Shown here in pieces: positions 7,068 to 64,000 of a stretch of DNA of 64,000 nt; within the stretch, counting starts at the first letter, position 1; each line of letters starts with the position of its first letter. The DNA is from Chrysoperla carnea (Eukaryota; Arthropoda; Insecta; Neuroptera; Chrysopidae), in the NCBI RefSeq assembly GCF_905475395.1, contig NC_058341.1:63557501-63621500 (forward strand), in the 5' to 3' direction. The notes beneath the pieces are model-generated. The model was not told the origin of the DNA and ran no database searches. It worked only from the letters and a program-made list of their open reading frames with translations. The position numbers and the translations under genes are program-made.

Positions 7068-7555
7068 ATACTAGCTGTGAACTACCCGCTTTGCTGGGCA
7101 ACATCCCCACTTGCACCCCTCCCTCCACATTTCCTTGCGTGGGATAACAGTTTTGTAATGTACACGTCATGCTCTTTTATTTGATACCCCACTTAGGTAT
7201 ATTTGTAAATATTCGATAATTCCTTCCCACTTTCTCGCTACACCTTTCTACCCTCCGAAGTTTAAAAGTAGATAAAAACAATAGATCTTTGAAGCTGGTT
7301 GTATATCGTGTCAATATTTTAGCTTAATCGATGCACAACTTTTTTAGTTTTTGAAGCATATGCCTTTCAACCCCTATTTCAACCCCTTACTCTACTATAA
7401 TATGGATGTATTATACATAAAAACCTTCCTCTTGAATCACTGTATCTATTAAAAAAAACCGCATCAAAATCCGTTGCGTAGTTTCAAAGATTTATGCGTA
7501 CATAGGGACATAGGAACAGAAAAAGCGACTTTGTTTTATAATATGTAGTGATATT
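7068..7555 (+). repeat. Family F interspersed repeat, copy 2
   Basis: Starts ACTAGCTGTGAACTACCCGC, passes GCTGGGCAACATCCCC, and ends with AATCCGTTGCGTAGTTTCAA, a CATAGGGACATAGG run and GCGACTTTGTTTTATAATAT. It runs almost in parallel with 24,459-24,942. The 3' end resembles, from memory, a repeat widespread in insects. No coding capacity. Confidence 0.8.
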
Positions 7556-23445: not shown

Positions 23446-24458
23446 TAACGTATAGTAAACATCATCGAACGCCATACCTATAATATTTTAATGGTGTATA
23501 CATAAGCTATAAGGATTAATTTAGAATATGGTATAGTACCGTTAAAAAGATTCCAAAAACTGGTTAATTAAGGAAAATGAAATAAACTTTTTACTCAAAC
23601 GCTCAGCCTAGCCGGTAAGTCACTTAAAGAGGCCGACTAGTTGGCCTAGCCGATGACGGTTTTTCGGGGGTATATTTCCGTGACGCTCCATTTACAACTT
23701 ATTTGCGCATAAGTCGCACGTAACCGCCGTCTGCAAGCCTTTCGAAACATGTCTAGTTTACTTCGTCTTGTTTCTAATTTCTTCTAACCTTGCATTTCTA
23801 CTTTCTTCTAACTTAATCTGACATTTTAAATAACAAAATACCATGCGTTTAAAATGTTTCCTGCCAATACAATGTAATTTTTAATTTTTTAGAAAATATA
23901 AAAAAAGCCTATAATATCATTACATTCAAAATTTAAAAGAAACCGCAAAAAATTTTTAATTTAAAAGAAAACAAAAATTAAACGAAACAGATTTTTTAAA
24001 ATTCGAAATAATTCACCCTTTGACTTTTCACTTTTATTTTTTTTAAACAAGAATATCGATGTCTGTGGTCTTCACAGACCACAATCAGTGCATGTTTTAA
24101 AAAACTTAGGTCAGTCACATTATGGTAACATAATAATTTAAAAAACACCCTGTCTTTTGAGAACACCATTAGTTTAATGATTTGGGAGTATTTGTGTGCA
24201 AAAACACAATCTATATGTCATTAATATATGAAGATTGATTGTAGTAACAAATTTGTTTTATTTGACATCGTAGTAAAATAATATTACTAAAAAAACACCA
24301 GCAATGCAGTTAGTCAGCAGTGGCGTAATGTTTGGGAGGGGGGAGGAGTGCATCATGCCCGGGCGCTACTCACAAAGGGCGTTAAATGGTCCGCAGAACA
24401 AAAAATTTTTGGATAATTTTTATTATTATTATAATTGATTTCGCAAAAATATATTTTA
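23446..24458. other. unassigned region
   Basis: Contains a short GC-richer piece (23,600-23,740) with inverted GCCTAGCCG/CGGCTAGGC-like motifs that I could not classify. No gene. Confidence 0.4.
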
Positions 24459-24942
24459 AACTAACTGTGAACTACCCGCTTTGCTGGGCAACATCCCCAC
24501 TTACACCCCTCCCTCCACATTTCCTTGCGTGGGATAACAGTTTTGTAATGTAAACGTCATGCTTTTTTATTTGATACCCCACTTAGGTATGTTTGTAAAT
24601 ATTCGATAATTATTTCCCACTTTCTCGCTACACCTTTCTACCCTCCGAAGGTTAAAAGTAGATAAAAACAATAGATTTTTGAAGCTGGTTGTATTCCGTG
24701 TCAATATTTGAGCTTAATCGATGCACAACTTTTTTAGTTTTTGAAGCATATCCCTTTCAACCCCTATTTCAACATGGGAGTATTATACATAAAAACCTTC
24801 CTCTTGAATCACTCTATCTATTAAAAAAAACTACGCATCAAAATCCGTTGCGTAGTTTCAAAGATTTAAGCGTACAAAGGGACATAGAGACATAGGGACA
24901 TAGGGACAGAAAAAGCGATTTTGTTTTATATATGTAGTGAAG
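24459..24942 (+). repeat. Family F interspersed repeat, copy 3
   Basis: Closest match to 7,068-7,555, sharing TGTGAACTACCCGCTTTGCT, GTGGGATAACAGTTTTGTAA, CACTTTCTCGCTACACCTTT, AATCCGTTGCGTAGTTTCAA and GCGATTTTGTTTTATAT. It has an extra ACATAGGG unit and a small deletion near 24,770. Confidence 0.8.
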
Positions 24943-37962: not shown

Positions 37963-38149
37963 CACGAGTCGCACCAGACTTTATCCATGGCTTGTTTTAT
38001 ATATACTTGGATATCAATACATTTAACAATTTAAAATTTCAACCAATGCACGTAATTTAATTTTATGGGGAATGAGTCTCATTTAATTGGTAGACAAGAA
38101 CCGCTTTTTACCCGACTGAGCAACGCAAAAAGTGGTAATGTGTTTTTCA

Positions 38150-38645
38150 GCTAAATATGTGTGTTCCTATATGGCTCAGTAGAGCCAAACGCGGTTTCTG
38201 ATTTTGAGGATTCAGACGTCAGTCGATTTGTCTTTACCCTGGAAGTGCTACTAACGATATGGCAATAATAAAAATTCAATATGGCGACCACCAGACGCTA
38301 TATTGCGAAAATGTGTGTTCCTATGTGGCACATTAGAGACCAAACCCGTGGACAGATTTTCATAATTCTGACGTCAATCGATTTTTTCTTAACCTTGCAA
38401 GTGCTACTGAAGATATAGCAGTAATGTAAATTCAATATGGCGCCCACCAGAAGCGATAAAGGGAAAATAATGTATAGGTCTTCCTATGTGGCGCACCAGA
38501 GATCAAACGCGTGAGCAAATATTGATGATTCTGACGTCAACCGATTTGTCTTAACCTTGCGAGTGCTACTGAAGATATGGCTGTCATAAAAATTCCATAA
38601 GGCTACCACCAGAAGGGATAAAGTGAAAAGAATGTATTTGTGTTT
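38150..38645. repeat. Tandem repeat, about 157-bp unit, three copies
   Basis: Units start near 38,152, 38,310 and 38,466, each with TGTGTTCCTATGTGGC-like starts, GACGTCA, TGTCTTAACCTTGC, AGTGCTACTGAAGATAT and CACCAGA. A fourth partial unit begins near 38,632. Divergence between units is visible. Confidence 0.8.
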
Positions 38646-46284: not shown

Positions 46285-47469
46285 TTCATTCCTGAGCATC
46301 AATTTGGGTTCCGTGAGAAACATTCCACAATAGAACAAGTGCACCGTATAGTAAATACAATTACGAAAAGTTTTCAAGAAAAAAAATATTGTACAGCAGC
46401 ATTCCTTGACGTCAGCAAAGCCTTTGATAAATTATGGCATCCGGGCCTGTTGTACAAATTAAAACATCAAATCCCAAGTTCTTATTTCTGTGTTTTAAAA
46501 TCATACTTAGAAGACAGATACTTCCAAGTCAAAATTCAAGAAGAACTTTCTGACTTGTTTCCTATCCAATCTGGTGTACCTCAGGGCAGTGTTCTGGGCC
46601 CAACTCTTTATTTAATTTATACCGCGGATCTACCGGTCGATGACACAAACGTAACAGCTACATTTGCGGATGATACTGCGATCCTATCGATTGATATAGA
46701 TCCAAATTCAGCTACTCAAAAACTGCAGACAAGTATCGATAAAATACAACATTGGTTGAATAAGTGGCGTATTCAAGTTAACGAGATGAAATCCGTTCAA
46801 GTAACGTTCACTTTGAGAAAAGAAACGTGTCCAGCTGTTATAATGAACGGTGTCAGTTTTCCACAGTCAAATGAAGTCAAATATCTAGGTATACACCTTG
46901 ATAGAAGACTTACTTGGCGTAAACACATCTGGTCGAAAAGAAAACAGCTAAACTTGAAATTTTCTAATTTATACTGGCTCTTGGGTCAAAATTCTAAGCT
47001 ATCATTGAACAATAAAGTCTTAGTGTATAAAACAATACTTAAACCTGTGTGGACCTATGGCATTCAGCTATGGGGATGTGCTAGCAATAGTAATATCGAA
47101 ATCCTGCAAAGATTTCAATCAAAAGTGTTGCGAACAACTAGTGATTCCCCGTGGTATGTACACTCACTGTCAGAAAAAGTGCCACAGTTAAAACATTCTA
47201 AGCGTACGCATCATATGTTATGTTATAATAGTAACACTTAGAATGTTTTAAAACGAGCATTTTTTGTGACATTGAGTATACGTAATGACGATATTCACCG
47301 AAGTCTCGAAGTGACCACAGTGCGTGAAGAAATTGCGAGTTTCAGTGATAGATACCTGACACTCATTGAGCAGCATCCAAACTCTGAAGTGATCAAACTC
47401 TTGGACAAGTGTGACAGTGTGAACAGACTAAAGAGACAAAACGTGCTAGATTTAAAATTTAGGTTTTAA
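46285..47469 (+). pseudogene. Jockey-like reverse transcriptase, C-terminal part, interrupted
   Basis: The open frame starts in the reverse transcriptase fingers (PEHQFGFREKHST, 46,297 onward) and contains the A motif AFLDVSKAFDKLWH (46,402), the B motif SGVPQGSVLGPTLY (46,570) and the catalytic FADD box (46,663-46,674). The thumb region follows (KYLGIHLDRRLTWRKH; LWGCASNSNIEILQRFQSK). This order and the SGVPQGSVLGP and FADD motifs identify a Jockey/CR1-group LINE. The endonuclease and the start of ORF2 are missing through 5' truncation. At 47,161 a 118-bp MITE interrupts the frame and supplies a stop (47,239-47,241). The C-terminal tail (DDIHRSLEVTTVREEI onward) resumes in the same frame after it and ends at 47,469. 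Codons are otherwise open, so the copy is young. Confidence 0.9.
47161..47278. mobile_element. 118-bp mariner-like MITE in the LINE
   Basis: Inverted ends of about 41 bp: left CACTCACTGTCAGAAAAAGT through TTAAAACATTCTAAG; right CTTAGAATGTTTTAAAA through TTTTTTGTGACATTGAGTA. Flanked by TA on both sides (47,159-47,160 and 47,279-47,280). Element plus duplication is 120 bp, which keeps the downstream codons in frame. Confidence 0.85.
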
Positions 47470-51099: not shown

Positions 51100-51500
51100 G
51101 ATAGATGACGTCATTGACCAATAGTAGCGCTGTAAAAATCAAGATGGCGTTGGGAGGTGTGGTGGGGGTGAGGAATGACATAAACGGGGCTTGACCAATA
51201 GTGATGGGCGTGGTTGACAGGAGTGTGTTTCTTGGAAGTGGGGCTTAAAGGGGGCGGGAATTGGACGTTAGATGAGATAATCGAGCCCACTTTCAATAGT
51301 AAATCAAGATGGCGTCGGGAGGTGTGGTGTTGGGGGATAATGGCTGCCTAAGCATTGATGACGTCATTGGCTTTGACCAATAGTAGCGCTGTAAAAATCA
51401 AGATGGCATCGGGAGGTGTGGTTGAATTGGTGGGGAGGAATGGCTGCCTAAGCATAAACGGGGGGGTGACGTCATTGGCTTTGACCAATAGTGGCGGAGA
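51100..51500. promoter_or_regulatory. GC-rich tandem module with CRE, CCAAT and GC-box motifs
   Basis: Near 50% G+C in a genome of about 30%. Three TGACGTCA palindromes (51,106-51,113; 51,359-51,366; 51,467-51,474) are each followed by an ATTGG or GACCAATAG motif within about 25 bp. GGGCGGG-like boxes lie at 51,253 and 51,511. ATCAAGATGGCGTCGGGAGG recurs near 51,138, 51,303 and 51,397, giving two clear tandem units of about 94-101 bp and one diverged unit. These are standard activator motifs (CREB/ATF, NF-Y, Sp1), so a promoter or enhancer, or a replicon end, is plausible. Function is inferred, not shown. The minus-strand open frames here are composition artefacts. Confidence 0.55.
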
Positions 51501-51530
51501 GTGAACGGGGGGCGGGACGTTGACATTAGT

Positions 51531-52190
51531 CAGCAATTTTCAAGAATATGTTAATTTGACCTTGAAAAATATGATATCATAATCCTGTTACAAGTTCAAA
51601 CTTGTTTGAAATAATTTTATACGTGACCGGATGTTAATATTTTTTTATGATTAAGCAATGTAATATGACACTTGAAATTTACATAATAAAAATACATGTT
51701 CAAACTTGTTTGAATGGACTTTGATCTTAAAATAATTTCACACGTGTCAGCAATTTTCAAGAATATGTTAATTTGACCTTGAAAAATATGATATCATCAT
51801 CTTGTAACAAGTTCAAACTTGTTTGAAATAATTTTACATGTGTCAAAACACGTGACCGGATGCTAATATTTTTTTATGATTAAGCAATGTAATATGACAC
51901 TTGAACGTGTTAGATAATAATTTGCAAATCTGAATTCCAAGAAAAGAATATTATGAGTCTGCAATTTTCAAGAATATGTTGAAATAGATATCATCTAACC
52001 TTGAAAAATATTGTAATTTGACACTTTAAGTAGACATGATAAAATTCAAGATACGTGACCGGATGTTAATATTTTTTTATGATTAAGCAATATAATATGA
52101 CACTTGAAATTTACATAATAAAAATACATGTTTAAACTTGTTTGAACTTGTTTAAACTTGTCTGAATTCCAAGAAAAAATAATTAGTTTG
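51531..52190. repeat. Tandem repeat, about 217-bp unit, outer part of the arm
   Basis: Three units starting at 51,531, 51,748 and about 51,958. Each has CAGCAATTTTCAAGAATATG, a GAAAAATATGATATCAT-like block, a CAAGTTCAAACTTGTTTGAA palindrome-like block and CGTGACCGGATGTTAATATT with ATGATTAAGCAAT. The third unit is internally shortened. It lies between the CRE module and the PolB promoter region. Confidence 0.85.
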
Positions 52191-52244
52191 AATTACGATT
52201 ATAAAAATATCAAATTACAACTTTTTTAGTGGTGGGGATAATGC

Positions 52245-52252
52245 TATAAAAA
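52245..52252 (+). promoter_or_regulatory. candidate TATA box of the left PolB gene
   Basis: TATAAAAA sits about 290 bases upstream of the inferred 5'UTR splice donor. It is the only clean TATA-like motif in the short interval between the tandem repeats and the gene. An arthropod-type initiator TCAGT occurs at 52,301, rather far downstream. Tentative. Confidence 0.35.
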
Positions 52253-52335
52253 GTGATGTACGTAGCTGTTGAAGTATCTCTTTTGAAATTCACCTTTGCT
52301 TCAGTTAGTTTTTTCCGCATATATTTTTTACGTTA

Positions 52336-52337
<2 letters not shown>

Positions 52338-52400
<63 letters not shown>

Positions 52401-52401
52401 T
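52338..52401. repeat. (ATT)n microsatellite in the PolB leader
   Basis: About 21 ATT/TTA units between the candidate promoter and the 5'UTR intron. Translated, it gives the poly-tyrosine of a spurious 75-codon frame. An identical mirror copy is at 63,099-63,162. Confidence 0.9.
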
Positions 52402-52595
52402 TGTTTTTGATATATTTATTATTCTAAACTTAGTCTATATATTTTATAAAAAAAACAAATATTACTCATTTGCCAGTTAACTCTAGTGTTGAACGGTTCG
52501 GTAACGTATATTTTGCTTAGTATTTGAAAATATAACGGTAAGTGTATAAATTTTTTAAATAATATTGTGAAACTTAAATATAATTTTTTTGAAAG

Positions 52596-55500
52596 ATGGA
52601 CACCTACGAACAAAATGTTATGCAAACGCTAAACGCGGTACCTCAAGGTGGTAGCACTGATATGATGAAGAAAGTGGAGAGAGCGTTGAGGCTCATCAAG
52701 ACGGTGGAGGAAGCTGAGCGATGGATGATACTTAATAAGCAGAACATCCGCTTATTCAAAAAGATGTTGATGTTAAAGAAAGAAAATCCTCTGCGTCTTG
52801 AAGCTAATATTGGACTTTGTAAATCATACCAGCGGCAACTTAACCGACTGCGATTAGATTTAGTTAAGCAAGGTGGTGGAGTCACCCAAAAACAAAATCG
52901 ACATCTAATCTGGGAGACAATTGAAACCCACCATCAGGGTAGGGTGAAGACTGGTATGATTACAAATTTGGATTATAAAGATCCAAATATATTTTTCAAC
53001 CGGGCATTTCCAATGTTTAGAAGACACGTTCGGCGTGAGCTAGTGAAGCATCCCCTCAAGGTAAGTAAAATTTAAGATTTATAATTTAAATAGTCTAATG
53101 AGATCTTGAATTTTTTTTCAGGTGTATATTATGTTCACGGGCAATTTTATTAAGCCCACCACCAAAGAGGAGGATTTGAAAACTTTTATAACGTCGGCCA
53201 AGGAAATGTATCTGACAACGGACATGCAGGAGTGGTACAATGATCATGTCAAAAACTATTTGCTGAAAAAATTGGAAGAATTCCAGGAACGCGATAGCGG
53301 TTGGGCTCTTGACATGATCATAAATATTCGAGTCCACATGAATAAGTACTCTCCGATCACAGCTGGAACATTTTGCGAACTACCATCTGCAATTAAATGT
53401 AGAAAAGCTGTGATCAATGTCCAGAATAAAGACCAGCATTGTTTTCTATGGTCGATAATGTCAGCACTTTACCCGGTTGAAAAGCATCCTCATCGTTTAA
53501 CTAAGTACCCGCACTATAAATATCATTTAAAATATGATGGATTAAAGTTTCCCATGTCTCTGGATCAAATTAATAAATTTGAAAAGATGAACCCGCAGCT
53601 ATCGATTAACGTGTACGGCTACAAAGTTACGTTTCTACGTGATTTAGAAATTTTCCCTGTACGCGTTAGTTCGAACACTGCGGGGAAGAAAATTCATCTA
53701 TTGGCTGTGGAGAATGGGAACAGTCACCACTTTTGCTGGATAAAAAATTTAGCAAAGTTGAGTCGATCGGGTGTAACAAAACACGTAGGTAAAATTTATT
53801 TATGTGATCGATGTCTCAACTATTTTGCTACAGAAGTCAAACTCCAACAGCATTCAGTAAATTGTGGTGAAAAAGAAGCGGTGCGGGTACGAATGCCTGA
53901 AACTGATGACGAGCGGTTCGTTGAGTTCAAAGATTTCAACAGCAAGGAACGTGTTGAGTATATGGTGTACGCTGACTTTGAGGCACTATTGGTACCACAA
54001 CATCATGAAGACATGGAAATGGATCATGGGTCTTATACAAAAAATATTCAAAAACATGTACCCTACAGTGTAGGTTACTATGTTCATTGTACCCATGATC
54101 CCAACCAATCGTTTTATAAGGCATACCGTGGTGCTGATTGTGTCAAGTGGTTTGTTCATGAACTGGAACAAGTAGCGTACTCATTAGAGCAAAAAATAAA
54201 ACACGTTAAACCAATGTATCCGCTCACCGTCGAACAAGAACTGGATTTTATGTCAGCAGAGAAGTGTCACATTTGTGGTAAAGATTTCGTATCCAATTCC
54301 ATACGTGTTCGCGACCATTCACATCGCACAGGTAATGCAGGTTATTTATTATTTTTTAATTTCATCTAATTTTATATTAATCTATTTTAGGTATCTACCG
54401 TGGAGCAGCACACCAATTTTGTAATCTGCATTATCAAGATTCAAAGGTGATACCTGTTGTGATGCACAACTTAAGTGGATACGATTCGCATTTTATTATT
54501 GAAGCTCTGCTGACGGAAATCGACGGTCAAGTTGATGTGTTGCCCATCAACAAAGAAAAGTACATCAGTTTCACAAAGCACGTCTCGGACATTCAATTAA
54601 GATTCATTGATTCCTTCCGATTTCTCGCAGACAAGTTGGAAAATCTGGCCTCATATTTAGATAATGATAAAAAATCCATTTTACATAAAGAGGTAAATGA
54701 TAAAAAATAATTAATTTTTAATACAGGGTTGTAATTTGTTTTTTAATTTTTTATAGGTCAGTAATGATGAACAATTTCAATTGCTAACGAGAAAAGGTGT
54801 ATTTCCATATGAATACATGAGTAGCTGGGGACGTCTCCAAGAGACAAAATTACCACCAAAGGAGGCGTTCTACAGTGTGTTAACAGATGAACACATAACG
54901 GATGAGGATTATAACCATGCGATACAGGTATGGAACACATTCAATTTACATACACTAGGTGATTATTCAGACCTGTATATGAAAACTGATGTGTTACTAC
55001 TTGCGGATATTTTTGAAAATTTCCGTAACACTTGTATTCATAGCTATAGTCTCGATCCTAGTCACTATTACACACTTCCTGGCTATACGTGGAGCGCCAT
55101 GTTGAAATACACCAATATCAAATTGGAATTGTTCACGGATATTGATGACTTGTTGTTTATCGAGAAAGGAATCAGAGGCGGTGTAAGTCAATGTTCTAAT
55201 CGCTATGCTAAGGCAAACAATAAGTACATGGAAGAGGGGTATGATAAAACTCAAGAAGATGTCTACCTTATGTATTACGATGTGGTGAACCTATATGGTG
55301 CAGCAATGTGTGGATACCTACCAACAGGAAATTTTAAGTGGGTCGACACACCAAACATCGAGGATGTTGCAGATGATTCACCAGTCGGGTACATTTTAGA
55401 AGTAGACCTTGAAATACCCCAACATCTACATGATAACTTTAGCGATTTACCGCCATGTCCGGAGACAACGAAACCACCTGGATCAAAACAAAAATATCTT

Positions 55501-56484
55501 CTGTCAACCCTTTACAATAAGACCAACTATGTCGTGCACTACAGGAATTTAAAACTGTATACACAACTCGGTGTTAAGGTAACAAAATACCACCGTGTGT
55601 TACAATTCGATCAATCTGCATGGTTGAAACCATATATTGAGTTCAATACCGAGATGCGCAAGAACGCCTCAAATGAGTTTGAAAAAGCATTATTCAAACT
55701 CATGATTAATGCCATCTTCGGTAAAACCATGGAGAATGTGAGGAAACATCGGGTTGTGTACATACGAAAAAATTGGGATGGAAAACATGGTGTGAAGAAA
55801 TTAATTGCCAAACCCAATTTTCACAGTATGATGGTGCTCGACAATGACGTCAGTATTGTTGAAATGAAAAAATCACAGATACGTTTCAACAAACCCATCT
55901 ACATAGGCTTCACAATTTTAGACATATCGAAAACGTTTGTGTATGACTTCCACTACAACTACATGTACCAACGGTATAACCCCACAAATGTCAGGTTATT
56001 ATACACAGACACCGATAGTCTAATTTATAGCGTGAGAAATACTGACGTCTATGAGGTCATGAAACAGGATATTAATCGTTTTGATACGGCTGACTATGCA
56101 CCCGACAACGTCTATGGTATACCACTACGTAATAAGAAAGTCAAGGGTTTAATGTCCGATGAAAATAATGGTGATGTTATGCTAGAATTTGTCGGATTAC
56201 GTAGCAAAATGTATGCTATTCGGGTGCAAAATAAAAAAGAGACTAAACGATCCAAGGGTCTCAAGAAGTCAGCTATCCGAAAACTTACTTTTGAGGACTA
56301 TAAGCGGTGTTTGCTTGAGAACCGTAACTTTTACCGTGTTCAGCAAAGCATCCAATCCAAGCGACACCGCTTACATACCATCAAACAGCAGAAAGTGGGC
56401 TTATCACCATTTGACCAAAAACGACACATTACTCACAATTCATGTGAAACAAAACCATGGGGCCACTATAGCATTATTTGTTGA
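52596..56484 (+). CDS. Family B DNA polymerase, protein-primed type, spliced (left copy)
   Basis: Predicted coding exons: 52,596-53,060; 53,122-54,331; 54,391-54,692; 54,757-56,484 (about 1,234 residues). Introns of 59-64 bp have GT...AG ends and keep the frame. Two more probable introns lie in the UTRs (52,538-52,595 ending at the ATG; 56,487-56,543 just after the stop). The product should be a DNA-dependent DNA polymerase with 3'-5' proofreading. Visible motifs: Exo I DFE (D440, E442), Exo II NLSGYD (D590), Exo III YMKTD (Y733, D737), Pol A DVVNLYG (D834), Pol [10 protein letters not shown] (K973-G981), Pol C DTDS (D1077, D1079). A C2HC zinc finger (C383, C386, H398, C402) and an endonuclease VII-like C..C...DHSHRTG...H..CN module (537-570) precede and overlap the exonuclease. 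This layout matches the DNA_pol_B_2 proteins of Polinton-like and virus-derived elements in arthropods. The N-terminal 380 residues have no motif I can name. Catalytic residues are intact. Confidence 0.92.
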
Positions 56485-56486
56485 GT

Positions 56487-56543
56487 GTAAGTATTTTATA
56501 TTTTATGTTTTTAATATTTAGCTAATTTTTGCTGTTGTTTCAG
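56487..56543 (+). other. probable 3'UTR intron of the left PolB gene
   Basis: GTAAGT donor two bases after the TGA stop; acceptor TGTTGTTTCAG at 56,543. At 57 bp it fits the other introns of the gene. The mirror copy is 58,957-59,013. Confidence 0.6.
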
Positions 56544-56724
56544 AAATGTGTCCTGCTGTTGTTGTGATGATCCTCAAAGTGGTTCGGTATTGTGATAGGT
56601 GTACAAACAATTGATAGAGTAGTGCGCATGAACAATTGATAGAGTAGTGGTGGGGGTGTCAAAAAATTGATAGTTAGGTTGAATTATTATAGAAAACAAT
56701 TTAGTGTTAGTTTAAACATACAAA

Positions 56725-57168
56725 ATGCAAGACTTTGGTAATCATAATAGTGATAACAACTGTATTGTTAATATGATTAAAGATAATTGTAGTTTAAGTA
56801 CTATAAACAATGTGTTAACAAAGTATTTTAAAACATCGGTTAATATGGCAATTAAATGTGGTCGACCGGAAACTTTAAACTACCTTATTGATAAGGTAGA
56901 ACAAATGGACTTAGAAGTGAAATTTTCCCCATCGTCAGACGATGAAGACAAACAAATTTGGAACTGGATTTTAAAAAATATCCACTCTGGACAAAAAGAT
57001 GGAATTGTAGGACTATCCATTTTTGAACAATCTTACTACAGTGTATTTACATCAGACGAGTTATATGACTATGTTCAAGTGAAAGAAATAATTGAAAATT
57101 ATCTTATGAAGAAAGATAATGATGATGATGATGATGATGATGATGACAATGGACACTTTTCAGAATAA
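56725..57168 (+). CDS. Small acidic protein of unknown function (left copy)
   Basis: 147 codons from the ATG at 56,725, about 240 bases downstream of the PolB stop and on the same strand. I recognise no family. The N-terminal half is predicted mainly helical. The segment MAIKCGRPETLNYLIDKVEQM (residues about 40-60, quoted in part: GRPETLNYLIDKV) resembles one half-degenerate ankyrin-type helix pair, which is weak evidence. Residues near 75-80 are DDEDK, and the C-terminus is a run of nine aspartates encoded by GAT repeats, then NGHFSE. No signal peptide, membrane segment or cysteine motif. Intact in both arms with no change that I noticed. It could be an accessory protein of the element, or part of the 3'UTR that is not translated. 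Confidence 0.6.
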   Translation: MQDFGNHNSDNNCIVNMIKDNCSLSTINNVLTKYFKTSVNMAIKCGRPETLNYLIDKVEQMDLEVKFSPSSDDEDKQIWNWILKNIHSGQKDGIVGLSIFEQSYYSVFTSDELYDYVQVKEIIENYLMKKDNDDDDDDDDDNGHFSE

Positions 57169-57176
57169 TAATTATA

Positions 57177-57515
57177 ATGTATTTTCGATAATTTATAAAT
57201 ATATATTTTTTAAATATTATTATAATACAACTCTGTTTTTATATGTTATAGATAAAATTTTACAATAAAAAAAATATTTTTACAATGTGATATTTTTTAT
57301 TTTTTTTTTTATAAAACACAAATATGTTCACAAAAGCGGTCCACTATGAAATAAGACTTTTTTTATCAATATATGAATCATGTAAAGAGTCGAACCCTAA
57401 CCACCGGACTTTAACTTTGGATCCATCATCATTTAAGGTAAATTATCATTATTTTGAATCAGAATTCATATTGATTCACAAACATCTTCTACACTAATAC
57501 CTGGGGTTGGGAAAA
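57177..57515. other. spacer between the acidic ORF and the minisatellite
   Basis: AT-rich, then a more mixed segment (57,320-57,510). No open frame of note and no clear polyadenylation signal beyond AATAAAA near 57,266. Confidence 0.5.
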
Positions 57516-57620
57516 ATTACTCCAAATTACTCCGATATTACTCCAAATTACTCCGATATTACTCCGATATTACTCCAAATTACTCCGATATTACTCCAAA
57601 TTACTCCAAATTACTCCGAT
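57516..57620. repeat. Minisatellite of ATTACTCCAA / ATTACTCCGAT units
   Basis: Ten units, five of 10 bp (ATTACTCCAA) and five of 11 bp (ATTACTCCGAT) in mixed order, 105 bp in all. It lies about 130 bp from the palindrome centre; the mirror copy is 57,880-57,984. Confidence 0.95.
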
Positions 57621-57879
57621 AATACTAAACAGGTCTGTATCTAAACAGGTCTGTATCTTAACAGGTCTGTTTCTAAACAGACCAGTATTAAACCGATCAA
57701 AACCAGTATTAAACCGGTCAAAAACAGTATTAAACAGACCTGTTTAGATACAGACCTGTTTAGATGTTAATACTGTTTTTGACCGGTTTAATACTGGTTT
57801 TGATCGGTTTAATACTGGTCTGTTTAGAAACAGACCTGTTAAGATACAGACCTGTTTAGATACAGACCTGTTTAGTATT
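57621..57879. repeat. Palindrome junction with 16-bp iterons
   Basis: The left side carries CTAAACAGGTCTGTAT twice, then CTTAACAGGTCTGTTT and related ACCAGTATTAAACCG units; the right side is the inverse. The non-palindromic centre (57,734-57,766, 33 bp) is two direct copies of ACAGACCTGTTTAGAT plus one G. The centre unit is the reverse complement of the arm iterons. This is either the end or origin region of the replicon joined to its copy, or the point where a strand snapped back. Confidence 0.9.
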
Positions 57880-57984
57880 ATCGGAGTAATTTGGAGTAAT
57901 TTGGAGTAATATCGGAGTAATTTGGAGTAATATCGGAGTAATATCGGAGTAATTTGGAGTAATATCGGAGTAATTTGGAGTAAT
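57880..57984. repeat. Mirror copy of the ATTACTCC minisatellite
   Basis: Inverse of 57,516-57,620, with the units in the same mirrored order. Confidence 0.95.
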
Positions 57985-58331
57985 TTTTCCCAACCCCAGG
58001 TATTAGTGTAGAAGATGTTTGTGAATCAATATGAATTCTGATTCAAAATAATGATAATTTACCTTAAATGATGATGGATCCAAAGTTAAAGTCCGGTGGT
58101 TAGGGTTCGACTCTTTACATGATTCATATATTGATAAAAAAAGTCTTATTTCATAGTGGACCGCTTTTGTGAACATATTTGTGTTTTATAAAAAAAAAAA
58201 TAAAAAATATCACATTGTAAAAATATTTTTTTTATTGTAAAATTTTATCTATAACATATAAAAACAGAGTTGTATTATAATAATATTTAAAAAATATATA
58301 TTTATAAATTATCGAAAATACATTATAATTA

Positions 58332-58775
58332 TTATTCTGAAAAGTGTCCATTGTCATCATCATCATCATCATCATCATCATTATCTTTCTTCATAAGATA
58401 ATTTTCAATTATTTCTTTCACTTGAACATAGTCATATAACTCGTCTGATGTAAATACACTGTAGTAAGATTGTTCAAAAATGGATAGTCCTACAATTCCA
58501 TCTTTTTGTCCAGAGTGGATATTTTTTAAAATCCAGTTCCAAATTTGTTTGTCTTCATCGTCTGACGATGGGGAAAATTTCACTTCTAAGTCCATTTGTT
58601 CTACCTTATCAATAAGGTAGTTTAAAGTTTCCGGTCGACCACATTTAATTGCCATATTAACCGATGTTTTAAAATACTTTGTTAACACATTGTTTATAGT
58701 ACTTAAACTACAATTATCTTTAATCATATTAACAATACAGTTGTTATCACTATTATGATTACCAAAGTCTTGCAT
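58332..58775 (-). CDS. Small acidic protein of unknown function (right copy)
   Basis: Inverted duplicate of the 147-codon ORF in the left arm, with the same length and the same predicted protein as far as I can compare. It is downstream of the right PolB gene and convergent with its left twin, with about 1.16 kb between their stop codons. Function unknown, as for the left copy. Confidence 0.6.
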   Translation of the reverse strand: MQDFGNHNSDNNCIVNMIKDNCSLSTINNVLTKYFKTSVNMAIKCGRPETLNYLIDKVEQMDLEVKFSPSSDDEDKQIWNWILKNIHSGQKDGIVGLSIFEQSYYSVFTSDELYDYVQVKEIIENYLMKKDNDDDDDDDDDNGHFSE

Positions 58776-58956
58776 TTTGTATGTTTAAACTAACACTAAA
58801 TTGTTTTCTATAATAATTCAACCTAACTATCAATTTTTTGACACCCCCACCACTACTCTATCAATTGTTCATGCGCACTACTCTATCAATTGTTTGTACA
58901 CCTATCACAATACCGAACCACTTTGAGGATCATCACAACAACAGCAGGACACATTT

Positions 58957-59013
58957 CTGAAACAACAGCAAAAATTAGCTAAATATTAAAAACATAAAAT
59001 ATAAAATACTTAC
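58957..59013 (-). other. probable 3'UTR intron of the right PolB gene
   Basis: Mirror of 56,487-56,543 with the same splice signals on the minus strand. Confidence 0.55.
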
Positions 59014-59015
59014 AC

Positions 59016-62000
59016 TCAACAAATAATGCTATAGTGGCCCCATGGTTTTGTTTCACATGAATTGTGAGTAATGTGTCGTTTTTGGTCAAATGGTGATAAG
59101 CCCACTTTCTGCTGTTTGATGGTATGTAAGCGGTGTCGCTTGGATTGGATGCTTTGCTGAACACGGTAAAAGTTACGGTTCTCAAGCAAACACCGCTTAT
59201 AGTCCTCAAAAGTAAGTTTTCGGATAGCTGACTTCTTGAGACCCTTGGATCGTTTAGTCTCTTTTTTATTTTGCACCCGAATAGCATACATTTTGCTACG
59301 TAATCCGACAAATTCTAGCATAACATCACCATTATTTTCATCGGACATTAAACCCTTGACTTTCTTATTACGTAGTGGTATACCATAGACGTTGTCGGGT
59401 GCATAGTCAGCCGTATCAAAACGATTAATATCCTGTTTCATGACCTCATAGACGTCAGTATTTCTCACGCTATAAATTAGACTATCGGTGTCTGTGTATA
59501 ATAACCTGACATTTGTGGGGTTATACCGTTGGTACATGTAGTTGTAGTGGAAGTCATACACAAACGTTTTCGATATGTCTAAAATTGTGAAGCCTATGTA
59601 GATGGGTTTGTTGAAACGTATCTGTGATTTTTTCATTTCAACAATACTGACGTCATTGTCGAGCACCATCATACTGTGAAAATTGGGTTTGGCAATTAAT
59701 TTCTTCACACCATGTTTTCCATCCCAATTTTTTCGTATGTACACAACCCGATGTTTCCTCACATTCTCCATGGTTTTACCGAAGATGGCATTAATCATGA
59801 GTTTGAATAATGCTTTTTCAAACTCATTTGAGGCGTTCTTGCGCATCTCGGTATTGAACTCAATATATGGTTTCAACCATGCAGATTGATCGAATTGTAA
59901 CACACGGTGGTATTTTGTTACCTTAACACCGAGTTGTGTATACAGTTTTAAATTCCTGTAGTGCACGACATAGTTGGTCTTATTGTAAAGGGTTGACAGA
60001 AGATATTTTTGTTTTGATCCAGGTGGTTTCGTTGTCTCCGGACATGGCGGTAAATCGCTAAAGTTATCATGTAGATGTTGGGGTATTTCAAGGTCTACTT
60101 CTAAAATGTACCCGACTGGTGAATCATCTGCAACATCCTCGATGTTTGGTGTGTCGACCCACTTAAAATTTCCTGTTGGTAGGTATCCACACATTGCTGC
60201 ACCATATAGGTTCACCACATCGTAATACATAAGGTAGACATCTTCTTGAGTTTTATCATACCCCTCTTCCATGTACTTCTTGTTTGCCTTAGCATAGCGA
60301 TTAGAACATTGACTTACACCGCCTCTGATTCCTTTCTCGATAAACAACAAGTCATCAATATCCGTGAACAATTCCAATTTGATATTGGTGTATTTCAACA
60401 TGGCGCTCCACGTATAGCCAGGAAGTGTGTAATAGTGACTAGGATCGAGACTATAGCTATGAATACAAGTGTTACGGAAATTTTCAAAAATATCCGCAAG
60501 TAGTAACACATCAGTTTTCATATACAGGTCTGAATAATCACCTAGTGTATGTAAATTGAATGTGTTCCATACCTGTATCGCATGGTTATAATCCTCATCC
60601 GTTATGTGTTCATCTGTTAACACACTGTAGAACGCCTCCTTTGGTGGTAATTTTGTCTCTTGGAGACGTCCCCAGCTACTCATGTATTCATATGGAAATA
60701 CACCTTTTCTCGTTAGCAATTGAAATTGTTCATCATTACTGACCTATAAAAAATTAAAAAACAAATTACAACCCTGTATTAAAAATTAATTATTTTTTAT
60801 CATTTACCTCTTTATGTAAAATGGATTTTTTATCATTATCTAAATATGAGGCCAGATTTTCCAACTTGTCTGCGAGAAATCGGAAGGAATCAATGAATCT
60901 TAATTGAATGTCCGAGACGTGCTTTGTGAAACTGATGTACTTTTCTTTGTTGATGGGCAACACATCAACTTGACCGTCGATTTCCGTCAGCAGAGCTTCA
61001 ATAATAAAATGCGAATCGTATCCACTTAAGTTGTGCATCACAACAGGTATCACCCTTGAATCTTGATAATGCAGATTACAAAATTGGTGTGCTGCTCCAC
61101 GGTAGATACCTAAAATAGATTAATATAAAATTAGATGAAATTAAAAAATAATAAATAACCTGCATTACCTGTGCGATGTGAATGGTCGCGAACACGTATG
61201 GAATTGGATACGAAATCTTTACCACAAATGTGACACTTCTCTGCTGACATAAAATCCAGTTCTTGTTCGACGGTGAGCGGATACATTGGTTTAACGTGTT
61301 TTATTTTTTGCTCTAATGAGTACGCTACTTGTTCCAGTTCATGAACAAACCACTTGACACAATCAGCACCACGGTATGCCTTATAAAACGATTGGTTGGG
61401 ATCATGGGTACAATGAACATAGTAACCTACACTGTAGGGTACATGTTTTTGAATATTTTTTGTATAAGACCCATGATCCATTTCCATGTCTTCATGATGT
61501 TGTGGTACCAATAGTGCCTCAAAGTCAGCGTACACCATATACTCAACACGTTCCTTGCTGTTGAAATCTTTGAACTCAACGAACCGCTCGTCATCAGTTT
61601 CAGGCATTCGTACCCGCACCGCTTCTTTTTCACCACAATTTACTGAATGCTGTTGGAGTTTGACTTCTGTAGCAAAATAGTTGAGACATCGATCACATAA
61701 ATAAATTTTACCTACGTGTTTTGTTACACCCGATCGACTCAACTTTGCTAAATTTTTTATCCAGCAAAAGTGGTGACTGTTCCCATTCTCCACAGCCAAT
61801 AGATGAATTTTCTTCCCCGCAGTGTTCGAACTAACGCGTACAGGGAAAATTTCTAAATCACGTAGAAACGTAACTTTGTAGCCGTACACGTTAATCGATA
61901 GCTGCGGGTTCATCTTTTCAAATTTATTAATTTGATCCAGAGACATGGGAAACTTTAATCCATCATATTTTAAATGATATTTATAGTGCGGGTACTTAGT

Positions 62001-62904
62001 TAAACGATGAGGATGCTTTTCAACCGGGTAAAGTGCTGACATTATCGACCATAGAAAACAATGCTGGTCTTTATTCTGGACATTGATCACAGCTTTTCTA
62101 CATTTAATTGCAGATGGTAGTTCGCAAAATGTTCCAGCTGTGATCGGAGAGTACTTATTCATGTGGACTCGAATATTTATGATCATGTCAAGAGCCCAAC
62201 CGCTATCGCGTTCCTGGAATTCTTCCAATTTTTTCAGCAAATAGTTTTTGACATGATCATTGTACCACTCCTGCATGTCCGTTGTCAGATACATTTCCTT
62301 GGCCGACGTTATAAAAGTTTTCAAATCCTCCTCTTTGGTGGTGGGCTTAATAAAATTGCCCGTGAACATAATATACACCTGAAAAAAAATTCAAGATCTC
62401 ATTAGACTATTTAAATTATAAATCTTAAATTTTACTTACCTTGAGGGGATGCTTCACTAGCTCACGCCGAACGTGTCTTCTAAACATTGGAAATGCCCGG
62501 TTGAAAAATATATTTGGATCTTTATAATCCAAATTTGTAATCATACCAGTCTTCACCCTACCCTGATGGTGGGTTTCAATTGTCTCCCAGATTAGATGTC
62601 GATTTTGTTTTTGGGTGACTCCACCACCTTGCTTAACTAAATCTAATCGCAGTCGGTTAAGTTGCCGCTGGTATGATTTACAAAGTCCAATATTAGCTTC
62701 AAGACGCAGAGGATTTTCTTTCTTTAACATCAACATCTTTTTGAATAAGCGGATGTTCTGCTTATTAAGTATCATCCATCGCTCAGCTTCCTCCACCGTC
62801 TTGATGAGCCTCAACGCTCTCTCCACTTTCTTCATCATATCAGTGCTACCACCTTGAGGTACCGCGTTTAGCGTTTGCATAACATTTTGTTCGTAGGTGT
62901 CCAT
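59016..62904 (-). CDS. Family B DNA polymerase, protein-primed type, spliced (right copy)
   Basis: Inverted duplicate of the left PolB gene. Coding exons on the minus strand: 62,904-62,440; 62,378-61,169; 61,109-60,808; 60,743-59,016. A probable 5'UTR intron is 62,962-62,905. All exonuclease and polymerase motifs listed for the left copy are present. The only coding difference I noticed is residue 814, asparagine in the left copy and lysine here (codon change at 60,279). It lies between Exo III and the Pol A motif, outside any named catalytic motif, so both copies may be active if expressed. Transcription runs toward the palindrome centre, against the left copy. Because the copies are nearly identical, reads will not map uniquely. 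Confidence 0.92.
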
Positions 62905-63098
62905 CTTTCAAAAAAATTATATTTAAGTTTCACAATATTATTTAAAAAATTTATACACTTACCGTTATATTTTCAAATACTAAGCAAAATATACGTTACC
63001 GAACCGTTCAACACTAGAGTTAACTGGCAAATGAGTAATATTTGTTTTTTTTATAAAATATATAGACTAAGTTTAGAATAATAAATATATCAAAAACA

Positions 63099-63099
63099 A

Positions 63100-63162
<63 letters not shown>
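63099..63162. repeat. (AAT)n microsatellite, mirror copy
   Basis: Inverse of 52,338-52,401. No length difference was noticed between the two. Microsatellites usually mutate fast, so this equality bears on the age or artefact question. Confidence 0.9.
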
Positions 63163-63164
<2 letters not shown>

Positions 63165-63247
63165 TAACGTAAAAAATATATGCGGAAAAAACTAACTGAA
63201 GCAAAGGTGAATTTCAAAAGAGATACTTCAACAGCTACGTACATCAC

Positions 63248-63255
63248 TTTTTATA
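63248..63255 (-). promoter_or_regulatory. candidate TATA box of the right PolB gene
   Basis: Mirror of TATAAAAA at 52,245-52,252. Same caveats. Confidence 0.35.
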
Positions 63256-63309
63256 GCATTATCCCCACCACTAAAAAAGTTGTAATTTGATATTTTTATA
63301 ATCGTAATT

Positions 63310-63969
63310 CAAACTAATTATTTTTTCTTGGAATTCAGACAAGTTTAAACAAGTTCAAACAAGTTTAAACATGTATTTTTATTATGTAAATTTCAAGTGT
63401 CATATTATATTGCTTAATCATAAAAAAATATTAACATCCGGTCACGTATCTTGAATTTTATCATGTCTACTTAAAGTGTCAAATTACAATATTTTTCAAG
63501 GTTAGATGATATCTATTTCAACATATTCTTGAAAATTGCAGACTCATAATATTCTTTTCTTGGAATTCAGATTTGCAAATTATTATCTAACACGTTCAAG
63601 TGTCATATTACATTGCTTAATCATAAAAAAATATTAGCATTCGGTCACGTGTTTTGACACATGTAAAATTATTTCAAACAAGTTTGAACTTGTTACAAGA
63701 TGATGATATCATATTTTTCAAGGTCAAATTAACATATTCTTGAAAATTGCTGACACGTGTGAAATTATTTTAAGATCAAAGTCCATTCAAACAAGTTTGA
63801 ACATGTATTTTTATTATGTAAATTTCAAGTGTCATATTACATTGCTTAATCATAAAAAAATATTAACATCCGGTCACGTATAAAATTATTTCAAACAAGT
63901 TTGAACTTGTAACAGGATTATGATATCATATTTTTCAAGGTCAAATTAACATATTCTTGAAAATTGCTG
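63310..63969. repeat. Tandem repeat of about 217 bp, mirror copy
   Basis: Inverse of 51,531-52,190. It contains one visible difference, ATTAGCATTCGGTCACG where the left arm gives the CCGG form (position 63,641). Confidence 0.85.
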
Positions 63970-64000
63970 ACTAATGTCAACGTCCCGCCCCCCGTTCACT

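Follow-up and report, generated by a model that had tools for sequence, protein, structure and literature searches.

The right-hand part of the window (by which we mean the whole 64-kb stretch of DNA that was analysed) holds a palindrome of at least 12.5 kb with near-perfect mirror symmetry, each arm of which carries an intact, spliced DNA polymerase gene (PolB), one small open reading frame (ORF) and several sets of repeats. By base-by-base comparison the inverted arms (51500-57733 and 57767-64000; 6,234 nt each) were found to align ungapped with three mismatches about a 33-nt spacer, in agreement with the first-pass annotation, which had described inverted copies of at least 6.2 kb centred near position 57,750. 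We stress that 6,234 nt is a lower bound for the arm length, as the pairing continues to base 64000, the end of the window. In the remainder of the window (1-51500) the longest inverted pair measured only 207 nt (among the 25 longest of 36 pairs), so that chance can be excluded as the source of the symmetry. The features of the locus are the following:

51100..51530: head repeats, G+C-rich imperfect direct repeats; the portion before 51500 is not part of the verified palindrome
51500..57733, + strand: left arm; 3 mismatches and no indels relative to the right arm; outer border outside the view
51520..52166: A+T-rich imperfect direct repeats upstream of PolB
52596..53060, + strand: PolB coding exon 1, left (155 aa); possible terminal-protein region
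53122..54331, + strand: PolB coding exon 2, left; candidate vOTU-like protease Cys/His, Exo I motif, zinc-finger-like stretch
54391..54692, + strand: PolB coding exon 3, left; Exo II motif
54757..56484, + strand: PolB coding exon 4, left; Exo III motif and polymerase motifs A, B and C
56725..57168, + strand: accessory ORF, left (147 aa); no family above cut-off
57516..57735: tandem arrays at the left inner end (21-bp, 16-bp and another 21-bp unit)
57734..57766: asymmetric 33-nt spacer (two 16-bp units and one base), its unit oriented like the 16-bp array of the right arm
57767..57986: mirror tandem arrays at the right inner end
57767..64000, - strand: right arm; ends at the window end
58332..58775, - strand: accessory ORF, right (147 aa); same protein as left
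59016..60743, - strand: PolB exon 4, right; one change (Asn to Lys)
60808..61109, - strand: PolB exon 3, right; one change
61169..62378, - strand: PolB exon 2, right; identical to left
62440..62904, - strand: PolB exon 1, right; identical to left

The three mismatches between the arms fall in the upstream repeats (51859/63641), in PolB exon 3 (54445/61055) and in PolB exon 4 (55221/60279, where the right arm has Lys in place of Asn). Two of these differences look derived on the right arm, judging from the sequences compared: for the first, all three copies of the affected repeat word are intact on the left, and of the right-hand copies two are intact and one is altered; the Asn affected in exon 4 is invariant in all four aligned PolB sequences. 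The direction of the exon-3 change cannot be polarised. Homopolymers of five or more bases number 60 per arm, and all 60 have equal lengths in the two arms; the same applies to the three longer tracts compared, and each arm has a 60-base ATT tract.

The polymerase gene and its relatives

The left-arm PolB gene (52596-56484) consists of four coding exons of 465, 1,210, 302 and 1,728 nt, amounting to 3,705 nt of coding sequence (1,234 aa) with the frame preserved. Its three short introns all have GT donors and AG acceptors, the splice letters are the same in both arms, and none of the left-arm exons (examined one at a time, not as a joined sequence) has an internal stop. Exons 1 and 2 are identical between the arms, so that a full spliced polymerase gene is present in each, as had been proposed from the first inspection of the DNA. 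What we take to be the exonuclease I-III and polymerase A-C motifs were found in the PolB of both arms.

Related PolB ORFs were recovered from three contigs: L001 (4.5 kb), L002 (17.4 kb, IMG/VR) and L003 (15.1 kb, IMG/VR). Exon 4 is 48%, 46% and 44% identical to them, respectively, and exon 2 matches them at E values of 2e-36 to 9e-39; exon 1 (155 aa) had no significant match to these relatives, and by its position only we consider it likely to hold a terminal-protein domain. An ordinary host polymerase was considered and rejected, since the PolB ORFs matched by exons 2 and 4 are those of virus-like contigs. The gene company of the relatives is virus-like as well: in L002 an rve integrase and a poxvirus-A32-like ATPase score above the Pfam cut-offs, and another ORF has a capsid match in Pfam that falls below the cut-off, while L003 has a phospholipase A2-like ORF and another that appears capsid-like by eye and has no Pfam match. 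Motifs, length and the gene company of the relatives support the view that the gene encodes a polinton-type protein-primed DNA polymerase, and the initial protein-primed reading is supported by the homology to the polymerase ORFs of virus-like contigs and by the motifs present in both arms.

Profile searches of the window PolB exons in Pfam, PHROGs and NCBIfam returned no polymerase family, and Pfam likewise gave none for the PolB ORFs of the three relatives. The sequence search against solved structures (PDB) had no PolB match, and the structure prediction for exon 4 (from 3 sequences) gave a mean pLDDT of 35.9 and an unusable model. A single-sequence PolB scan of viral contigs yielded nothing useful, broader PolB scans returned the same two contigs, and searches among plasmids and phages were uninformative.

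One Cys and one His are invariant in all four sequences of the exon-2 alignment and are present in both arms; following passages of PMC11071308 we assign them as the candidate vOTU catalytic pair. A match to endonuclease VII was below the Pfam cut-off in exon 2 of the window and above it in the PolB ORF of L001. This last contig (1-4552), which carries the related type of PolB, is titled as a Spirochaetes MAG and is probably a misbinned eukaryotic virus or element.

Gene content of the unit and known systems

The accessory ORF mentioned in the first-pass annotation was recovered in both arms as one and the same 147-aa protein. It has no family above the cut-offs of Pfam, PHROGs and NCBIfam, and nothing similar turned up in viral contigs. 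The protein displays an acidic Asp tract and has a below-cutoff match to DUF7401 (E 0.0015).

We made use of tblastn (E up to 1) to search the window with 10 of the 11 listed L002 ORFs (among them the integrase) and all nine L003 ORFs for genes missing from the unit. Significant matches were obtained for PolB only (over both gene copies), three remaining rows were at chance level (E 0.23, 0.54 and 0.94), and nine other L002 ORFs and eight other L003 ORFs had no window match below E 0.9. Hence, within the reach of this search (near homologues of the L002 and L003 genes, which diverged genes could escape), an integrase was not found in the window, and neither were a capsid protein and a packaging ATPase. 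Matches to the other genes are absent, and among the 25 longest of 46 inverted pairs those that join head and tail of a single unit are short and A+T-rich; a single arm therefore falls short of a complete polinton. Either the remainder lies beyond the fold (lost or unseen), or it was never present. Rfam and tRNA scans of the DNA gave nothing informative.

Polintons/Mavericks (Polintoviricetes) and adintoviruses resemble the unit in the large size of PolB, in its extended N-terminal region, and in the candidate vOTU Cys/His and the exonuclease and polymerase motifs. Unlike them, the unit has three short introns, is palindromic, shows no evident terminal inverted repeats within an arm and is without matches to the integrase, capsid and ATPase of its relatives (by tblastn, near homologues only). 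Bidnaviridae (Bombyx mori bidensovirus) and the bidna-like Vesanto virus infect insects and have small linear segments and a polinton-derived PolB, according to passages of PMC4938981, PMC8363768 and PMC11071308, the last of which describes the active-site Cys and His of the vOTU domain as replaced in bidnavirids. The window PolB keeps the candidate Cys and His, and differs on this point from the bidnavirids as described there. Within the papers searched, no palindromic or tail-to-tail polinton was found in print (which does not prove absence); in PMC12721341, 'tail-to-tail' denotes gene order.

Repeats at the ends of the unit and at the junction

The unit is bordered by repeats on both sides: at its head by the G+C-rich direct repeats and at its tail by the tandem arrays. 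Thus, of the terminal-type repeats described at first, the repeats themselves are real at both unit ends and their terminal nature is putative. The head repeats (51100-51530) hold three of the window's 12 occurrences of TGACGTCA (0.58 expected) and its only two of CAAGATGGCG, together with CCAAT and GGGCGG words; in our assumption these four words recall the control sites of adenovirus terminal repeats. Words resembling those of the head repeats (GACGTCA-like and CAATATGGCG-like) also occur in three copies of a 162-bp tandem unit at 38149-38628. A 19-nt match of a head-repeat word in contig L004, whose ORFs are tailed-phage-like by eye, was taken as chance.

The tandem arrays start about 350 bp past the last ORF, the centre of the palindrome lies about 570 bp past it, and the arrays likely belong to the element. 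Proceeding inward in the left arm, the 16-bp unit (about 3.5 copies) is followed by a 21-bp unit (about 2.6 copies) and then by the spacer with its two 16-bp units. Since the spacer continues the array with 16-bp units in the orientation of the right arm, we place the strand switch inside the array. In the simplest reading of the junction, copying would have proceeded through an array of the form A-B-A as far as the final A block and then reversed at B, the A block being left as the loop.

The centre of the palindrome was also considered as a pre-existing fold-back site. The spacer together with the left arm forms a hairpin of -41.2 kcal/mol, the lowest among 1,559 folding windows over 1-57766; without the spacer the end of the left arm folds at -15.7 kcal/mol, and a value of -19.1 kcal/mol was obtained for the right arm together with its own spacer. 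The strength of this hairpin depends on the inverted spacer, and we rejected it as evidence for such a site, regarding it as mostly a result of the inversion and not counting it as its cause.

Origin of the palindrome and surroundings of the locus

We tentatively favour, at somewhat less than an even chance, a fold-back duplication of a truncated element of polinton type, taking place in vivo within its terminal arrays. The starting unit would have been such an element reduced, within the window, to PolB and one small ORF. A strand whose end lay in these terminal tandem arrays would have folded back on itself, about 33 nt forming the loop, and then copied the whole unit (possibly by means of the element's own polymerase), giving a tail-to-tail inverted dimer with its heads outside, now chromosomal. 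By this route a one-ended unit would have become a molecule whose two ends are identical, the arms forming one giant inverted terminal repeat. Such a molecule could in principle be replicated by a protein-primed polymerase, with the head repeats as putative origins, and the dimer might conceivably still be active. The inverted arms and the short asymmetric spacer are what a fold-back with an unpaired loop would leave. Also in favour of this reading are the motifs and candidate protease Cys/His in both copies, and the fact that, among the 25 longest of 46 pairs, the inverted matches between the ends of one unit are short and A+T-rich. Against it, no target-site duplication was seen, near homologues of an integrase, ATPase or capsid protein were not found in the window, two of the three differences look derived on the right arm, and the available stretches of the three relatives show no comparable palindrome. 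Snap-back dimers have a parallel in the symmetric recombinants of adenoviruses. The nearest documented parallel may be the snapback defective genomes of AAV, described in passages of PMC8235507 as self-complementary dimers, some with an unpaired loop; AAV differs in being a parvovirus that is not protein-primed, and its snapback genomes are packaged DNA, as opposed to the chromosomal locus found here.

The same symmetry would arise from a library or assembly fold-back of a single copy, perhaps combining two haplotypes, one per arm; the chromosome would then hold one PolB unit and continue differently, and we consider this nearly as likely as a fold-back in vivo. The arms are near-identical, their slippery tracts are equal in length (which counts against the fold-back in vivo, as it also fits a single locus read twice), and the symmetry reaches the window end without a visible border. 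Fold-backs make up approximately 0.55-0.6% of ONT genomic reads in passages of PMC12870357, and 44-48% of the reads in two amplified Arabidopsis sets in excerpts of PMC6218980. Against such an artefact may count that the three PacBio samples of PMC12870357 showed virtually no fold-backs among HiFi reads. Moreover, a fold-back of a single molecule should yield no true substitutions. Errors in raw long reads are mostly indels, yet there are none between the arms, and three substitutions without a single indel, in spite of 60 homopolymers and the ATT tract, are hard to ascribe to long-read error. We stress that this argues against raw-read error and does not settle the question of an artefact. 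True substitutions would mean that the sequence derives from two molecules or loci; the palindrome would then be either true or a join of two haplotypes, and such a join would itself account for the three differences. Ageing sufficient for three substitutions should also alter slippery tracts; as these are unchanged, the palindrome, if real, would be young or kept alike by gene conversion. Of the tail-to-tail dimer suggested in the first-pass annotation, the fold-back origin fits the junction, and an event in the animal is not distinguished from one in the library or the assembly; the artefact that had been named there as the main alternative keeps nearly the weight of the biological reading, with the indel-free substitutions speaking against raw-read error.

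The remaining explanations concern the part played by the element. A host-driven inverted duplication (by breakage-fusion or template switching at a fork) could have included a passive PolB insertion by chance; events of this sort are a general mechanism, short spacers can result from them, and the palindrome border lies beyond the window, so host DNA may be included. We nevertheless regard it as improbable, because the tandem arrays in which the junction is situated start only about 350 bp past the last ORF and are likely the element's own. The idea, also put forward at the outset, of a stable class of minimal elements that normally exist as a giant palindrome made up of PolB and one ORF would accord with the intactness of both gene copies and with the lack of evident terminal inverted repeats in one arm (among the 25 longest of 46 pairs), and we judge it very unlikely: its support is limited to this one locus, and the available stretches of the three relative contigs are without a long inverted repeat (at most 31 nt in L001 and 48 nt in L002, none of 40 nt or more in L003). 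It is unlikely too that an animal chromosome here harbours a protein-primed replicon that is minimal yet self-sufficient, having lost the remainder of the polinton and regained its second replication end by snap-back. Such a replicon would comprise one small ORF and a PolB to which a terminal-protein region and a protease are fused, and its inverted terminal repeats would be the whole 6-kb unit.

If the palindrome is real, a chromosomal protein-primed element would have been preserved as a snap-back dimer, showing how elements of this kind could drop their capsid and integrase genes and keep two origin-bearing ends. Were the locus transcribed past its ends, it could by analogy yield hairpin RNA directed against the element. 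Mu killer of maize, according to PMC3440606, is an inverted duplication of a portion of a gene of an element and a proposed source of hairpin RNA; the likeness to the present locus lies in the inverted duplication of element gene sequence. If the palindrome is an artefact, the gene unit is real and the palindrome is not, and the case stands as a caution.

To the left of the palindrome, at 46339-47241, a 300-aa ORF with an FADD motif resembles, by eye, a non-LTR (jockey-like) reverse transcriptase. It points to an animal host, and in combination with the short introns and the base composition we would guess at an arthropod-like one. MITE-like repeats occur in 1-51500 as well: many inverted pairs of about 100 nt (among the 25 longest of 36 pairs), and a dispersed repeat of about 200 nt (93-97%) in at least three copies (1542-1748, 7069-7267 and 24451-24657).
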